Shown here in pieces: positions 32,191 through 38,322 of a stretch of DNA of 64,000 nucleotides (position 1 is the stretch's first letter; the number at the start of each line of letters is the position of its first letter). The translations under genes and the position numbers were made by a program. The notes under the pieces were generated by a model. It was not told the DNA's origin. It ran no database searches and saw only the letters and a list, made by a program, of their open reading frames with translations. The DNA comes from Acidocella sp. (GTDB taxonomy: Bacteria; Pseudomonadota; Alphaproteobacteria; Acetobacterales; Acetobacteraceae). The stretch lies in NCBI GenBank assembly GCA_029077825.1, contig JAQNCT010000009.1, positions 1 to 64,000 of the forward strand. The letters run 5' to 3'.

Positions 32191-32703
32191 CTAATCCTGT
32201 AACTGCGGATTATGAAACACCGGGTTGCGCCACTTATGCAAGGCTCTGGTCAACGCCGCGGCCAAATCGCGCTTTTGCACCTCGCCCAACTGGCGGGCCA
32301 CCTCTTGGGAAACACCACGCGCTGAGAGCAGCAGTTTTGGCACCGTCCCGGCGCGTTCCTCCAGCACCACATTCAGCCAGTATGGCGGCAGCGAGATATT
32401 TTTGGTCCGGCCATTCATATCGGTGCAAATGATGATAAATTTTGACTCGGTCAAAACCAGCAATTCGCGCGCCCGCGCCGCCCGCACATTCAGCCAAAGT
32501 AAAAACAACGCCAGCGCGATGTCAGCCCCGTTGAAACCAATCACCACCCAGGCACCGATCATCGCCATCATGCTGGTCACCACCAACGAACCCGCCAGCA
32601 TCACCCCACCGGCCATCAGCACGCCCTTACGGTCCAGGCTGCGGTGCGGCTTGATAGTGGCCTCGAAGATCAGCCGGTCAGAAGTGGCGGTATGGGCGTC
32701 CAT
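32191..32703 (-). CDS. DUF2244 membrane protein
   Basis: About 170 aa. Two close transmembrane segments (VLMAGGVMLAGSLVVTSMMAM and WVVIGFNGADIALALFLLWLNV) sit between a cytoplasmic start (FEATIKPHRSLDRKG) and a soluble C-terminal half. The C-terminal half has LTESKFIIICTDMNGRTKNISLPPYWLNVVLEER, the DUF2244 pattern. DUF2244 has no established function. ATG 32703 is chosen because the longer open frame overlaps the divergent nth gene. It is convergent with chvG. Confidence 0.88.
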   Translation of the reverse strand: MDAHTATSDRLIFEATIKPHRSLDRKGVLMAGGVMLAGSLVVTSMMAMIGAWVVIGFNGADIALALFLLWLNVRAARARELLVLTESKFIIICTDMNGRTKNISLPPYWLNVVLEERAGTVPKLLLSARGVSQEVARQLGEVQKRDLAAALTRALHKWRNPVFHNPQLQD

Positions 32704-32745
32704 GCCCCATAAATCGCGTATTCCACTGGTTCCACAAGGGATGAA

Positions 32746-33444
32746 ATGAACGCAACCCGCCCAAAGCGCCCAAAACTGATGAAAACGGCGGATATCGCGC
32801 CGTTCCTCACCGCCATCGCCGCCGGTAACCCTGACCCGCGCACTGAGCTGGACTACGCAACACCCTTCCAACTGCTGGTGGCGGTGATGCTGTCCGCCCA
32901 GACCACTGATGTGGCGGTCAACAAGGTGGGAAAAATATTATTTGCTGACGCCCCCACCCCCGCTGCCATGGCCGCCCTCGGGGCGGCGGGCATCGGGGCG
33001 CGGATCAAATCCATCGGGCTGTGGCAGGCCAAGGCCAAAAATGCCGCCGCCCTCTCGCAATTGCTGATCGAGCGCCACGGCGGCGAAGTGCCCGGCGCGC
33101 GTGAGGCGTTAGAGGCCTTGCCCGGCGTCGGGCGCAAAACCGCCAATGTGGTGCTGAACGAGATTTTCGGCCAAGCCACCATGGCGGTGGATACCCATAT
33201 CTTCCGGCTCGGCAACCGCACCGGCATCGCGCCCGGTGCCACGCCGCGGGTGGTGGAGGATGGATTGCTCAAGCGCGTGCCCGAGGCAATGCTGCGGCCA
33301 GCCCATTTATGGTTGATTTTGCATGGCCGCTACGTGTGCAAGGCCCGCACCCCGGAATGCTGGCGCTGCGCTGGTGCTGCCTATTGCGTGTTCAAACCTA
33401 AAACCCCGGCGCCGATCGCACGTCAAAAAAAACCCGCCGGCTAA
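32746..33444 (+). CDS. nth: Endonuclease III
   Basis: Base-excision-repair glycosylase/AP lyase. The product is 232 aa. The helix-hairpin-helix LEALPGVGRKTANVVLNEIFG is followed by the catalytic region MAVDTHIFRLGNRTGIA, whose Asp in VDTH is the general base. The iron-sulfur loop has the spacing C-x6-C-x2-C-x5-C (CKARTPECWRCAGAAYC). ATG 32746 has AAGGGAT upstream. The stop lies inside a strong hairpin that works as a terminator on the opposite strand. Confidence 0.97.
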   Translation: MNATRPKRPKLMKTADIAPFLTAIAAGNPDPRTELDYATPFQLLVAVMLSAQTTDVAVNKVGKILFADAPTPAAMAALGAAGIGARIKSIGLWQAKAKNAAALSQLLIERHGGEVPGAREALEALPGVGRKTANVVLNEIFGQATMAVDTHIFRLGNRTGIAPGATPRVVEDGLLKRVPEAMLRPAHLWLILHGRYVCKARTPECWRCAGAAYCVFKPKTPAPIARQKKPAG

Positions 33445-33457
33445 AAGCCAGCGGGTT
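33421..33457 (-). terminator. Rho-independent terminator (minus strand)
   Basis: Read on the minus strand, aacccgctggct pairs with agccggcgggtt (one G-U) over an apical loop of about 3 nt, followed by a run of eight T (33423-33430 on the plus strand as A). This is the strongest intrinsic terminator in the region. It would end the candidate RNA at 33458-33553 and any trxB/LysR read-through. It overlaps the nth stop. Confidence 0.85.
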
Positions 33458-33553
33458 AAGTCAACAGGGAGGCTTCACGTCTGGGAGACGTTAGGGCCCA
33501 AACCCAGCCGAAGCTGAATGAGAACCCCAATCAGGCCTGGGTGGGCCTGACGA
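33421..33553 (-). ncRNA. Candidate structured small RNA with intrinsic terminator
   Basis: The intergenic stretch between nth and the LysR gene has no ORF of note but strong structure. In minus-strand order it has three elements. First, an 11-bp stem joins ggcccaccca (about 33537-33546) with tgggtttgggcc (33495-33506), with a 2-nt bulge. Second, a perfect acgtct/agacgt hairpin occurs (33477-33491). Third is the terminator at 33421-33457. Single-stranded or loop segments carry TCTCCC and CCTCCC, which could pair with Shine-Dalgarno sequences. A TATATA sits at about 33561-33566 on the minus strand, suggesting a start near 33553. The -35 is weak. The RNA family is not recognised. Confidence 0.5.
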
Positions 33554-33558
33554 TGTTG

Positions 33559-33590
33559 TATATATACCACATGAATGAAAAATTAACAGG
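33559..33590 (-). promoter_or_regulatory. Possible promoter for the candidate small RNA
   Basis: The minus strand reads TATATATA at 33559-33566 as a -10-like box, with an A/T-rich upstream run. The best -35-like hexamer (CTGTTA at about 33584-33589) is poor. Only the -10 is convincing. Confidence 0.3.
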
Positions 33591-33666
33591 CGAAATGTAA
33601 AATTATTTTACGAAAGCTCGTTCACGATCTCGACAAATCTGTCAAATCTGAGCAGCTTGAAAAGTT

Positions 33667-34563
33667 TTATGTCCTGTCAGGGTTTCTTTCTGAAATCGAT
33701 TTAACCAAAAAGTCACGGAAAACTGAAACCCGTTTGGAGTTTCGCAGCTCCTCCGGATAGACAAAATACATATCCACATGCGGTTTCTGCACGTTCGGTA
33801 ACAGCGGGATCAACCCAGCTGGCTCATGCATCAAATAATCCGGAATCGCACCAATACCAATCCCGGCGCGAATCGCCACCAGCATCGCCTGCAGCGAGTT
33901 CACCTCCAGCAACCCCCGGCGCGGCGTGCCGTCCTTGCGACCCACCTCAGCCAGCCAGTTCACATCCAGCACCGGTGGCTTACGGTCACCAAACAGCACC
34001 AGCTTGTGGTGATCCAAATCCTCAGGCTTTTCTGGCGTGCCATTGGCCTTCAAATACTCCGGCGAGGCCCATACCTGCCAGCGGATTTCGCCCAGATGCC
34101 GCTGCACCAGGTCCGGCTGGCGGGGCGGGTGCATACGAATCGCGACATCGGCTTCGCGCATCGCCAAATCCAGGTCAGTATCATCAAGCAGCAGCGAGAC
34201 CGAAACATCCGGGTGTGCGCTGAGAAAATGCTTCAAACGCGGCGCCAGCCAGGTCACACCAAAACTATGGGTGGTGGTGATTTTGAGGCGCCCAGCGGGT
34301 TTTTCCTTGCTCTCCGCCAGCAGCGCCTCGGTCATTGCCAGCTTGGCGAAAACTTCGCGTACCGTGCGGTTCAGCGCCTCACCCTGCTCGGTGAGGATCA
34401 ACCCACGGGCATGGCGATGAAACAGCGGCACCGAGAGCGCCTCCTCCAGCGCTGAAATCTGCCGGGAAACCGCTGATTGGCTAAGGTTGAGCGTGTCACC
34501 CGCATGGGTGAAACTGCCCGCTTCAGCAACGGCGTGAAATACGCGGAGTTTGTCCCAATCCAT
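33667..34563 (-). CDS. LysR-family transcriptional regulator
   Basis: About 298 aa. An N-terminal winged helix-turn-helix (MDWDKLRVFHAVAEAGSFTHAGDTLNLSQSAVSRQISALEEAL) is followed by a periplasmic-binding-like effector domain (about 90-295). ATG 34563 is preferred because AGGG lies 6 nt upstream and the family often begins MxWDKLRVFH; ATG 34578 is an alternative one base after the trxB stop. It is cotranscribed with trxB, as in several alphaproteobacteria. The target and inducer are unknown. Confidence 0.92.
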   Translation of the reverse strand: MDWDKLRVFHAVAEAGSFTHAGDTLNLSQSAVSRQISALEEALSVPLFHRHARGLILTEQGEALNRTVREVFAKLAMTEALLAESKEKPAGRLKITTTHSFGVTWLAPRLKHFLSAHPDVSVSLLLDDTDLDLAMREADVAIRMHPPRQPDLVQRHLGEIRWQVWASPEYLKANGTPEKPEDLDHHKLVLFGDRKPPVLDVNWLAEVGRKDGTPRRGLLEVNSLQAMLVAIRAGIGIGAIPDYLMHEPAGLIPLLPNVQKPHVDMYFVYPEELRNSKRVSVFRDFLVKSISERNPDRT

Positions 34564-34579
34564 TTTTTGCCCTGACATT

Positions 34580-35545
34580 TTAAGCTGCTTTTTCTATGTG
34601 CATTGGAAAATTAGCAAGGAATTTCTCAGCCTCTAGCGCCGCCATGCAGCCGGTGCCCGCCGCCGTCACCGCCTGGCGGAAAATTTTATCTTGTACGTCC
34701 CCGGCAGCGAACACACCCGGCACCGAAGTCTGGGTGGTGCCTGAAGTTGTCAGTATATACCCCTCCGAGTCGGTTTTCACCTGACCCGCGAAAACTGCGG
34801 TGGTCGGCGAATGGCCAATCGCGATGAACACCCCATCCACGCCGATGGATTGCAAATCGCCGGTTTTGGTGTTGCGCAAGGTGACCCCCGTCACCACCGC
34901 CGGTGCCTGCGTACCAGTGATCTCCTCGACCGCGTGGTCCCAAATCACTGAGATTTTCGGGTTGGAAAACAGCCGGTCCTGCAAAATTTTCTCGGCACGG
35001 AAGGAATCGCGGCGATGGATGATGGTGACATGGCTGGCATGGTGGGTGAGGTACAATGCTTCCTCAACCGCGGTGTTGCCGCCGCCGATCACCGCAACTT
35101 TTTTGCCGCGATAGAAAAACCCATCGCAGGTGGCACAGGCCGAAACGCCGCCGCCCTGGAAGCTTTGTTCAGAGGGCAGCCCCAGCCAGCGGGCCTGCGC
35201 GCCGGTCGCAATGATAACCGAGTCGGCAATAAACTCATCACCCGAATCAGCCCAGGCATGGAACGGTGTTGCCGAAAAATCCACTCTGGTAATGATATCA
35301 TAAATGATTTTAGTTCCAACATGCGCGGCCTGGGCAGCCATTTGGTCCATCAGCCAGGGCCCCTGAATGGTCTGCGCAAAGCCCGGATAGTTCTCCACAT
35401 CGGTGGTAATGGTAAGCTGCCCGCCCGGCTGCAGCCCAGCCACCATCAGGGGGGCCAGATTGGCGCGCGCGGCATAAATGGCGGCGGTATAGCCAGCCGG
35501 CCCGGCGCCAATGATCAGCACGCGGGTCTTGTGAACCTCAGACAT
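34580..35545 (-). CDS. trxB: Thioredoxin-disulfide reductase
   Basis: FAD/NADPH enzyme that reduces thioredoxin. It is 321 aa. The FAD site is VLIIGAGPAGYTAAIYAARA, with GGQLTITTDVENYPGF. The redox-active CATCDGFFYRG is next to the NADPH-binding VAVIGGGNTAVEEALYL. The C-terminal FAD motif is GVFAAGDVQDKIFRQAVTAAGTGCMAA. ATG 35545 is used; the in-frame TTG 35551 is less likely. It is divergent from the Lrp gene (about 146 nt) and upstream of the LysR gene. Confidence 0.97.
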   Translation of the reverse strand: MSEVHKTRVLIIGAGPAGYTAAIYAARANLAPLMVAGLQPGGQLTITTDVENYPGFAQTIQGPWLMDQMAAQAAHVGTKIIYDIITRVDFSATPFHAWADSGDEFIADSVIIATGAQARWLGLPSEQSFQGGGVSACATCDGFFYRGKKVAVIGGGNTAVEEALYLTHHASHVTIIHRRDSFRAEKILQDRLFSNPKISVIWDHAVEEITGTQAPAVVTGVTLRNTKTGDLQSIGVDGVFIAIGHSPTTAVFAGQVKTDSEGYILTTSGTTQTSVPGVFAAGDVQDKIFRQAVTAAGTGCMAALEAEKFLANFPMHIEKAA

Positions 35546-35691
35546 CGACAAACAATCCGTTCAGATACTTGAAAAGTAACATATCCGTGGTTTTACACCG
35601 GATACAAGCGGTGCTGCTAAATTTACTGCGTGGTACTTTTACACCGCGTAATTATATTGCGCCCAGACCAGAACAAGTTTTGAATGGACCC

Positions 35692-37260: not shown

Positions 37261-37302
37261 TCCGTCAAAAAACTTTTCATTTTATTGGAAGAACCGCCGG
37301 TC

Positions 37303-38322
37303 ATGCCTGCACATCTGTTCCATCGGCAACACGCCAGCAAAATATTCTACCTGATCCTGGCGATGGCGGCCACGCCGCTGCTCTGCGCCAATGCGCTGGC
37401 TGATGACCAGCGTGACCAACATAATCAGCAAAATCATCCCGCCGCGCCACCGCCACCGCCACCGCCACAGCACCCGGAAAATATTGCACCGCACCCGTAT
37501 GTGAATCAGTCACCCAACGGCGGTGCGCCGCAGCATAATTTCACCCAAACCCCTGGCGGCGGGCAGCCGCATCAGTTCAACCCTAACCAAGGCCAGCCGC
37601 CCCACCAATTCACCCAAAGCCCCAACGGTGGCGGCCAACCTCACCCGTTTGACCAGAACGCCGGTGGTGGCCAGCCCCATCCGTTCGACCACAACCCCAA
37701 TGGCGGGCAGCCTCATCCGTTTGACCAGAACGCCGGTGGCGGCCAGTCCCACCCGTTCGACCACAACCCCAATGGCGGGCAGCCCCATCCGTTCGACCAG
37801 AATGATCCCGGCGATTACGGCAGCCAAGGCCATTACGGCCAGGACAACCACGGCAACGATCATAATTATGACGGCGATCATCCATTCGCGCATGAGCATT
37901 ATGTTTTCCATGACCATGATGTGCGGCAGTTTGATCATGATGATTTTGACCATTGGCGTGAAGGCTATTGGAACAACACCTGCTTTGCCGGCCGTTGCGG
38001 CTGGTGGTGGCTGGCCGGCGGTATCTGGTATTTCTACACCCAGCCGGTTTACCCCTATCCTCTCTACATGCCTGATGTAACCTATGAGGATCCATCTTAC
38101 GGATACCAGGATGCACCGCCGCCACCGCCGCCGGTTTATTACGCGCCGCCACCCACCTATTACGCGCCACCACCACCACCGCCTCCGGCTTATTACGCGC
38201 CACCGCCCGTTCCATTAGCGCCCGGACCGAAATTCCGTTACTATTGTAGCAATCCGCCTGGTTACTATCCGCAGGTGCCGAACTGCAATACCCAATACCA
38301 GGAAGTGCCTGTCAACCAGTAA
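37303..38322 (+). CDS. Secreted His/Asp/Pro-rich protein with 12-residue tandem repeats
   Basis: About 339 aa. A signal peptide (about residues 14-34, ending ANALAD) precedes a low-complexity protein. A Pro run (PPPPPPPQHPEN) is followed by repeats. Alternating 12-residue units, NPNGGQPHPFDQ and NAGGGQPHPFDH, run about five times, encoded by near-identical 36-nt units (about 37620-37800). A His/Asp cluster follows (HNYDGDHPFAHEHYVFHDHDVRQFDHDDFDHW). A hydrophobic core (CFAGRCGWWWLAGGIWYFY) comes next. The tail has YYAPPP repeats and a CSNPPGYYPQVPNC motif seen in many alphaproteobacterial secreted proteins. Metal binding is plausible but unproven. ATG 37303 is used rather than TTG 37285. Confidence 0.75.
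   Translation: MPAHLFHRQHASKIFYLILAMAATPLLCANALADDQRDQHNQQNHPAAPPPPPPPQHPENIAPHPYVNQSPNGGAPQHNFTQTPGGGQPHQFNPNQGQPPHQFTQSPNGGGQPHPFDQNAGGGQPHPFDHNPNGGQPHPFDQNAGGGQSHPFDHNPNGGQPHPFDQNDPGDYGSQGHYGQDNHGNDHNYDGDHPFAHEHYVFHDHDVRQFDHDDFDHWREGYWNNTCFAGRCGWWWLAGGIWYFYTQPVYPYPLYMPDVTYEDPSYGYQDAPPPPPPVYYAPPPTYYAPPPPPPPAYYAPPPVPLAPGPKFRYYCSNPPGYYPQVPNCNTQYQEVPVNQ
37620..37800 (+). repeat. In-gene 36-nt (72-nt double unit) tandem repeat
   Basis: Five consecutive units of 36 nt encode GGQPHPFDQ/H-type 12-mers. Alternate units are nearly identical at the DNA level (for example, caccccaatggcgggcag-type ends recur exactly), which points to recent expansion or conversion. Copy number may vary between strains. 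Confidence 0.8.

Follow-up and report, generated by a model that had tools for sequence, protein, structure and literature searches.

A conserved small RNA locus behind trxB–lsrB in Acidocella sp. and its predicted action on ribosome-binding sites

The 64,000-nucleotide (nt) stretch of Acidocella sp. DNA analyzed here (GCA_029077825.1, contig JAQNCT010000009.1, positions 1–64,000 of the forward strand; hereafter the window) has a spacer between nth and a LysR-type regulator gene in which several hairpins are predicted on the minus strand, and the question is what this spacer encodes. An initial annotation had proposed a small RNA (sRNA) gene there. Conservation and covariation, together with a conserved promoter element and a terminator, now give good support to such a gene with an exposed CCUCCC complementary to ribosome sites. 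By sequence evidence, the locus belongs to a real, deeply conserved sRNA gene family. The reading that we favor, and hold to be reasonably probable as a whole, is of a trans-acting sRNA that has its own promoter, blocks ribosome-binding sites and is linked to the regulator LsrB, and for which we infer transcription, Hfq binding, target blocking and LsrB control.

Conservation and predicted structure of the locus

To follow the sRNA across the class, we used a sample of 289 alphaproteobacterial genomes, drawn evenly from the class, and searched it with the core pattern CTCCCAGACGTNNAGCCTCCCTGTT, tolerating at most two mismatches and taking the reversed pattern as a control. The near-invariant core ACGUCUCCCAGACGU-GAAGCCUCCCUGUU was found by pattern in 91 of the 289 genomes and the reversed pattern in none, and on this recurrence the sRNA locus is beyond chance. 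Core columns were counted in 168 of 179 rows, the others having been removed for short flank or as repeats, and these columns are partly fixed by the pattern; in the columns outside it, CGT precedes the core in 163–164 of the 168 rows and TT follows in 163 and 149 of them. A covariance model built for the family (R1) was run on 92 loci, all brought in by the sRNA itself and mostly by the core pattern; it matched all 92, with scores on its own family of 24.9–96.9 bits. In the class-wide sample, R1 matched 108 of 289 genomes at E ≤ 1.1e-11 and 167 at E ≤ 0.01, though weak matches can be RNAs resembling alpha-r8, a known sRNA family taken up below.

A BLAST search with 150 bases of the sRNA spacer covered 61 genomes (37 of the window's genus and 24 others of the class) and found the sRNA in 41, namely 35 of the 37 (the window's own genome included) and 6 of the 24. 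The genus genomes without a match are G026 and G027, G028 matches over the first 51 bases only, at a contig end, and most matches outside the genus span little beyond the core. The same family also includes three genomes without the core pattern (G062, G194 and G292). Among the matches listed, named carriers, taken from 80 listed of at least 119 stretches, include Azospirillum, Roseomonas, Reyranella, Thalassospira, Kiloniella, Magnetovibrio, Inquilinus, Belnapia and an Acidiphilium metagenome-assembled genome (MAG), mostly what we take to be Rhodospirillales-type genera; two MAGs titled Rhizobium sp. Q54, also among the matches listed, speak against a clean split by order. No plasmid relatives of the sRNA were found. 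Two genomes, G271 (1.8 Mb) and G281 (1.6 Mb), hold four pattern copies of the core each, possibly by lineage-specific multiplication.

The minus strand of positions 33421–33570 folds with a minimum free energy of −66.7 kcal/mol, against a mean of −45.18 (standard deviation 4.27) for shuffled sequences (z −5.04; 0 of 200 shuffles as good). The predicted fold contains each of the three hairpins described initially (a long bulged stem, a perfect 6-bp hairpin and a terminator) and adds H1, which makes four stem–loops (Table 1). The terminator, read at first as very strong, has the most pairs of the eight terminator-like sites in 32500–34500, and it lies antisense to the last codons of the nth open reading frame (ORF), which corrects the initial placement of the gene between nth and the LysR gene. 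When the 129-nt transcript was read in three frames there was no ATG frame, and the TTG frame of ~24 codons is not credible, which agrees with the initial claim of no ORF; the 5′ part of the sRNA also varies freely in length among relatives, which counts against coding. Two CUCCC stretches had been offered for pairing with ribosome-binding sites, and both are present: CCTCCC is clearly open, while TCTCCC is open at its CCC only, within the H3 loop of the predicted fold.

Within the genus, the stem–loops before H3 vary by eye, with two in L006, three in L010 and many compensating letters; the 5′ hairpins vary in number and in letters, yet by eye their stems persist in most predicted folds. In the predicted folds of eight loci (L006, L009, L011, L012, L018, L019, L021 and L025), the GGGA arm of the UUCG hairpin pairs with CCUCCC, and a self-masking of the seed, perhaps a switch, is possible in these models.

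Covariation was measured on two alignments, an unfitted MAFFT alignment (A1; 55 rows chosen by eye from 122 non-redundant, with clear alignments favored) and one fitted to the model (A2; 95 sequences), which leans towards its own model. On A2, 92.2% of cells pair, and the covariation score is 0.432, a value that none of 500 shuffles attains (0.134 for shuffles). Both-sided changes occur in 12 of 18 pairs, a count that shuffling, with its mean of 10.1, attains in 11 of 500 cases. On A1, the covariation score is 0.195 versus 0.123, with 0 of 500 shuffles as high, and RNAalifold, unaided, recovers H3 only. The compensatory changes that had been proposed as a check are thus found on A2 in the UUCG helix (5 of 5 pairs) and in the terminator (7 of 7 modeled pairs), though the window's longer H2 only partly fits the UUCG helix of the model. 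They are missing from the core hairpin H3, which has zero both-sided changes in A2 or by RNAalifold on A1 because it hardly varies.

Table 1. Features of the sRNA gene and its neighbors in the window
Feature	Positions	Strand	Basis or remark
Predicted sRNA transcript, ~129 nt	33425–33553	−	Promoter box, terminator, fold and conservation; 5′-end placed from the −10 box
H1, 8-bp hairpin with CACCCA loop, variable module	33530–33551	−	Predicted fold
H2, long bulged hairpin with UUCG loop	33492–33529	−	Predicted fold; relatives have a short GGG(U/A)CUUCGGACCC-type hairpin there
H3, core hairpin ACGUCU-CCC-AGACGU, 6 bp	33477–33491	−	Near-invariant in 168 distinct contexts, partly by search construction
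Single-stranded region GAAGCCUCCCUGUUGACUU	33458–33476	−	Near-invariant as far as CUG, partly by search construction
Proposed seed CCUCCC	33467–33472	−	Unpaired probability 0.73–0.99
Intrinsic terminator	33425–33457	−	12-bp stem 33431–33457, loop of 3, eight T 33425–33432
Conserved promoter element TGTGGTATATATACAACA	33554–33571	−	−10 box TATATA at 33559–33564
LysR-type regulator gene, LsrB/VtlR orthologue by sequence	33667–34578	−	Pfam HTH_1 and LysR_substrate; directly upstream of the sRNA
trxB, thioredoxin reductase	34580–35551	−	Pfam Pyr_redox_2; upstream of lsrB; name from family, earlier annotation and context
nth, endonuclease III family	32746–33444	+	Pfam HhH-GPD; convergent neighbor

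The trxB–lsrB neighborhood and the promoter

In the window, the stop codon of lysR lies ~114 nt before the sRNA on the same strand. Across relatives we assembled 169 distinct contexts, 143 of them with at least 1200 nt upstream and 77 with at least 2300 nt (none of the latter from the window's genus). In 116 of the 143, a same-strand lysR homologue ends no more than 600 nt before the sRNA; these comprise all 24 of the genus contexts and 92 of the 119 from elsewhere (75 of 98 once near-duplicates are removed). The regulator gene is 0.67–2.0 kb off in 7 contexts and not in reach in 20; among these 20, three genomes of family f37 (G201, G299 and G073) have it 1.7–2.8 kb upstream on the same strand, and in G096 another copy of the sRNA sits directly behind the regulator. 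Where the upstream sequence was long enough, trxB was also present in 58 of 77 contexts, and the order trxB–lysR–sRNA is kept in relatives; on the downstream side, only 7 of the 138 contexts that could be tested have an nth homologue. The two genes are also missing together: G026, G027, G062 and G194 have neither the sRNA nor an lsrB match at E ≤ 1e-40, with the completeness of G026 and G027, only 81% and 90%, bearing on this joint absence.

The linkage extends in graded form beyond the strict core. From the 198 genomes without the core pattern we hand-picked 30 for size and completeness, and 22 of these carry an lsrB orthologue at 269 bits or more. At 26 loci searched behind lsrB in genomes without the strict core, graded relatives of the sRNA were found in 7 (L230, L224, L218, L221, L225, L220 and L234), with R1 scores from 61.4 down to 28.1 bits. 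Downstream of lsrB in L225, L229 and L233 there are hairpin and CUUCCC core variants, such as CATGTCCTAGACATGAGCTTCCC in L229; these variants look intermediate between the window's sRNA family and AbcR-like RNAs.

Compared with solved structures, the window's LysR protein scores 312 bits against PDB 9HH1 (290 residues) and 119 bits against the next best. PDB 9HH1 is LsrB of A. tumefaciens (PMC11975290; this and the other papers are cited here from excerpts of their text), and on this match the window's LysR is an LsrB/VtlR orthologue. The excerpt describes LsrB as unique to Rhizobiales; in contrast, LsrB orthologues with the same gene order stand beside the sRNA in genera such as Azospirillum and Roseomonas. 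In A. tumefaciens, VtlR directly activates abcR1, which is located downstream of trxB–vtlR (PMC7486931). We looked for the VtlR box GCAT-N3-TG-N3-T in the regions upstream of the sRNA and found it on the sRNA strand in 17 of 116 and on the opposite strand in 3, versus a shuffled mean of 2 and maximum of 5 (20 shuffles) and 0 of 20 contexts without lysR in reach; all in all, 17 of the 92 lysR-linked members outside the genus carry it. By analogy, the sRNA is probably switched by LsrB.

The TATATA box named in the initial annotation is present, and it belongs to an element conserved in the genus. All 27 genus sequences that could be tested carry the element, TGTGGCNTATATACAACA, at the predicted −10, with 1.83 bits per column against 0.35 (−90 to −41) and 0.72 (−39 to −1) in the flank and 1.05 in the best 18-column flank window; the alignment was anchored on the motif itself with at most four mismatches, so the motif columns are inflated. 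From the start of the element to the core the distance is 57–113 nt across the genus, as hairpins come and go, and by eye a weak −35 (TTAAAA-like) lies 16–17 nt upstream of the −10 in many members. Since the element is conserved while its flank drifts, a promoter of its own is favored over a mere 3′ untranslated region (UTR). A T-N11-A palindrome at 33598–33610 was considered as a LysR site and dropped, since by eye the other members of the genus do not have it in that position.

One further neighboring protein is AsnC-type by Pfam, and an ORF at 37285–38322 on the plus strand encodes repeated GGGQPHPFDQN-like units with a proline- and tyrosine-rich tail.

Proposed action and competing explanations

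In the mechanism that we propose, a trans-acting sRNA of ~129 nt would be transcribed leftwards from its own promoter, with the TATATA box as −10, and ended by the strong terminator. The variable 5′ hairpins and the UUCG hairpin would serve as a scaffold, and the working part would be the near-invariant 3′ module, made up of the 6-bp CCC-loop hairpin, the open GAAGCCUCCCUGUUGACUU and the U-tailed terminator. The U tail of a terminator is a usual Hfq site, and the accessible anti-Shine–Dalgarno (anti-SD) stretch and U-rich terminator tail are both present here, as in the Hfq-dependent anti-SD class of sRNAs. CCUCCC would pair with GGGAGG-type ribosome-binding sites and block the translation of a set of mRNAs, and by the layout of AbcR and SisA, CCUCCCUGUU would pair with (A)ACAGGGAGG in such sites. 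AbcR1/2 repress transport and metabolic mRNAs through anti-SD motifs (PMC8844928), and the anti-SD 10-mer of SisA acts upstream of the start codon, as tested with Caulobacter Hfq in E. coli (PMC12559287); for both, mutations showed that the anti-SD stretches work in the start region of the targets. Nutrient-uptake and metabolic genes would, as for AbcR, be the most likely targets. The gene would have its place behind trxB–lsrB because an LsrB/VtlR-type regulator controls the sRNA.

The target pattern ACAGGGAGG-N2-12-ATG has four sites in the window's own genome, which we give as leads only, with no enrichment claimed. The first precedes a gene (L307, G000:C61) that its CxxCH motifs led us, by eye, to read as a pufC-like photosynthetic cytochrome, and if this multihaem reading is right the organism is probably phototrophic. 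The second precedes what by eye looks like an enoyl-CoA hydratase gene, the third a solute-binding protein gene (Pfam SBP_bac_11), with the identical site string occurring once in G010, and the fourth a frame of 58 codons only.

Several findings pull the other way. The target leads come from a plain pattern, and the reversed-pattern control is weak because purine runs before ATG are normal. On A1, the pair types are not above shuffles (342 of 500 reach the observed number), and sliding the pairing by +1 yields equal both-sided cells, 82 versus 81. The linkage also has exceptions: G292 has trxB–lsrB but no R1 match behind it, and in G320 the sRNA and the best lsrB match are on separate contigs. 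Since lysR and the sRNA have no terminator between them, the RNA may also arise by read-through or processing. As to the regulator, the four cysteines of A. tumefaciens LsrB (C144, C236, C244 and C273 in the published excerpt) are all replaced in the window's LsrB, and the whole protein is cysteine-free; for that reason it is not a thiol redox switch of the A. tumefaciens kind. The VtlR box is found in 0 of 24 linked loci of the window's genus, and there is no GCAT at all between the stop of the window's lysR and the predicted sRNA start. Because the box is absent there, we infer LsrB control in this genus from position, and such control, if any, differs in the genus, where neither the box nor the cysteines are found. 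The S. meliloti papers, as excerpted, conflict with each other as well: lsrB had no effect on the AbcRs in strain 1021, while in strain 2011 AbcR1 was lost without LsrB.

Among the competing explanations, the one that survives best is that the RNA is a true homologue of AbcR1 (alpha-r15, RF02345), one ancestral lsrB-linked anti-SD sRNA that has diverged past sequence recognition, and we regard it as a serious possibility at somewhat below even chances. The gene order trxB–vtlR–sRNA is that of A. tumefaciens, where the AbcR gene lies directly downstream of trxB–vtlR/lsrB (PMC7486931). The AbcR1/AbcR2 RNAs of Rhizobiaceae and Brucellaceae have lengths of 121 and 114 nt versus the predicted 129 and carry anti-SD motifs, one of them between two stem–loops. 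The VtlR boxes upstream of part of the sRNA family and the graded forms behind lsrB agree with such descent. In contrast, when AbcR was set against the window's sRNA by published motifs and by model, the S. meliloti AbcR1/2 anti-SD motifs CUCCUCCC and UUCCCCUC (excerpt of PMC8844928) were absent from the 129-nt sRNA, and the near-invariant ACGUCUCCCAGACGU hairpin of the window's family was not met in the excerpted accounts of AbcR. The ar15 model gave no match at 33350–33700 at E ≤ 10, but this search is uninformative because the model matched 0 of 289 genomes and no control either.

The initial annotation had raised the possibility that the hairpins are no more than the 3′ UTR of the trxB–lysR transcript. 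We consider it unlikely that the locus is just this 3′ UTR with its terminator, or an sRNA that is cut from it and has no promoter of its own. Its position suits such an origin, being on the same strand a short way past the lysR stop with no terminator between, and a precedent exists in SorX, an RNA processed from the ompR-1 3′ UTR (excerpt of PMC8625941), with an lsrB-linked RNA in G288 (L237) scoring above the SorX cut-off. What makes it unlikely is the conserved promoter element, kept at the −10 in all 27 testable sequences while its flank drifts and its distance to the core changes, together with the 20 of 143 copies that have no lysR in reach, even though three of these have lysR 1.7–2.8 kb upstream and one is a second copy.

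Slightly less likely again is that the invariant core serves chiefly to bind a protein or to act in cis, its anti-SD letters being incidental. The near-complete invariance of a paired hairpin would be unusual for a pure seed, and H3 is without compensatory change; the conserved stretch, however, takes in the open CCUCCCUGUU, the parts of the 3′ module are arranged as in proven anti-SD sRNAs, and within the search pattern some of the invariance follows from the way the search was built.

Comparison with known sRNA families

No Rfam family reached threshold in the window's sRNA or in 20 relatives, which fits the initial remark that the family was not a recognized one, and none did so in 20 loci around LysR homologues in genomes without the strict pattern (L237 lies outside this set). 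The gathering scores that matter here are 41 for suhB (RF00519), 46.6 for SorX (RF02784), 111 for SorY (RF02651) and 50 for BjrC1505 (RF02356). Our first lead, that the sRNA is a divergent alpha-r8 (MmgR/SuhB/SisA) RNA of the same anti-SD kind lying under the Rfam cut-off, is improbable and was rejected: suhB is its best Rfam match (35.1 bits, E 9.5e-6, full length) and R1 matches alpha-r8 loci weakly, but the score is below the cut-off, R1 separates its own family (best score per locus at least 35.6 bits) from the alpha-r8 loci tested (at most 19.4), the 10-mer UUUCCUCCCU is missing, and three alpha-r8-type loci that have it occur at other places in the window's own genome, two scoring above the Rfam cut-off and the third at 34.9 bits, below it despite the 10-mer (L064, G000:C25:11109-11179; L210, G000:C80:3763-3833; L212, G000:C86:92904-92983).

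The alpha-r8 family, which includes MmgR of S. meliloti and SisA-D of Caulobacter, is defined by the single-stranded 10-mer downstream of a weak hairpin (excerpt of PMC12559287). The window's sRNA shares with it the order of a hairpin, a single-stranded CCUCCC and a Rho-independent terminator; unlike alpha-r8, it has GAAGCCUCCCUGUU in place of the 10-mer, and it lies beside lsrB and nth, whereas alpha-r8 genes are usually beside an N-formylglutamate amidohydrolase gene.

Likenesses to other families are found before the terminator. The SorX model of Rhodobacter has ACCUCCCUGUUGGA there, which resembles GCCUCCCUGUUGACUU of the window's sRNA, but the upstream hairpin of SorX differs and the window's sRNA scores 26.4 bits, under the SorX cut-off; for SorY, also of Rhodobacter, the window's sRNA is likewise below the cut-off. 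BjrC1505, an alphaproteobacterial sRNA model, has GCCUCCCUGUU before its terminator, but its upstream structure is different and the match reaches 23.5 bits (E 0.019), under the cut-off. Behind lsrB orthologues in two genomes of family f23, one RNA (L237:2685-2768, in G288) scores 51.6 against SorX, above the gathering score, and another (L238:2498-2579) scores 62.1 against SorY, well under it. These findings suggest, though they do not prove, that the lsrB-linked site is common to the window's sRNA and several known anti-SD sRNAs.

From our literature searches and Rfam, the family is apparently undescribed, the 2016 alpha-r8 survey and the 2012 survey of alphaproteobacterial sRNAs being known to us by reference only. 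A search for the core string CTCCCAGACGT returned, among the matches listed, one paper that by its title concerns a bacterium (Bradyrhizobium). A term search of the excerpted Azospirillum sRNA paper (PMC7685610), with its sRNA list not gone through, did not meet the window's sRNA, and we found no literature on AbcR1 in Acetobacteraceae.

An RNA with so little change in its core across many families, for which Rfam nevertheless has no entry at threshold, is likely to be a core regulator that annotation misses. By analogy, the sRNA most likely works like AbcR and alpha-r8, although the comparisons made here do not place it in either family. Its place behind trxB–lsrB suggests that the LsrB/VtlR-to-sRNA circuit, studied in Rhizobiales associated with plants and animals, has a far greater age and spread, and the LsrB-linked sRNA module is probably older than the Rhizobiales, while the cysteine-free LsrB of the window raises the question of what this regulator senses. 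A broader proposal, which we put forward tentatively and at less than even odds, is that a trxB–lsrB–sRNA module is ancestral to the Alphaproteobacteria, with its input through LsrB rewired in the cysteine-free protein and its output frozen in nearly every letter; AbcR1 in the Rhizobiales, the SorX/SorY-like RNAs of f23 and the window's RNA in the Rhodospirillales-type genera would then be divergent forms of one lsrB-linked RNA that blocks ribosome-binding sites.

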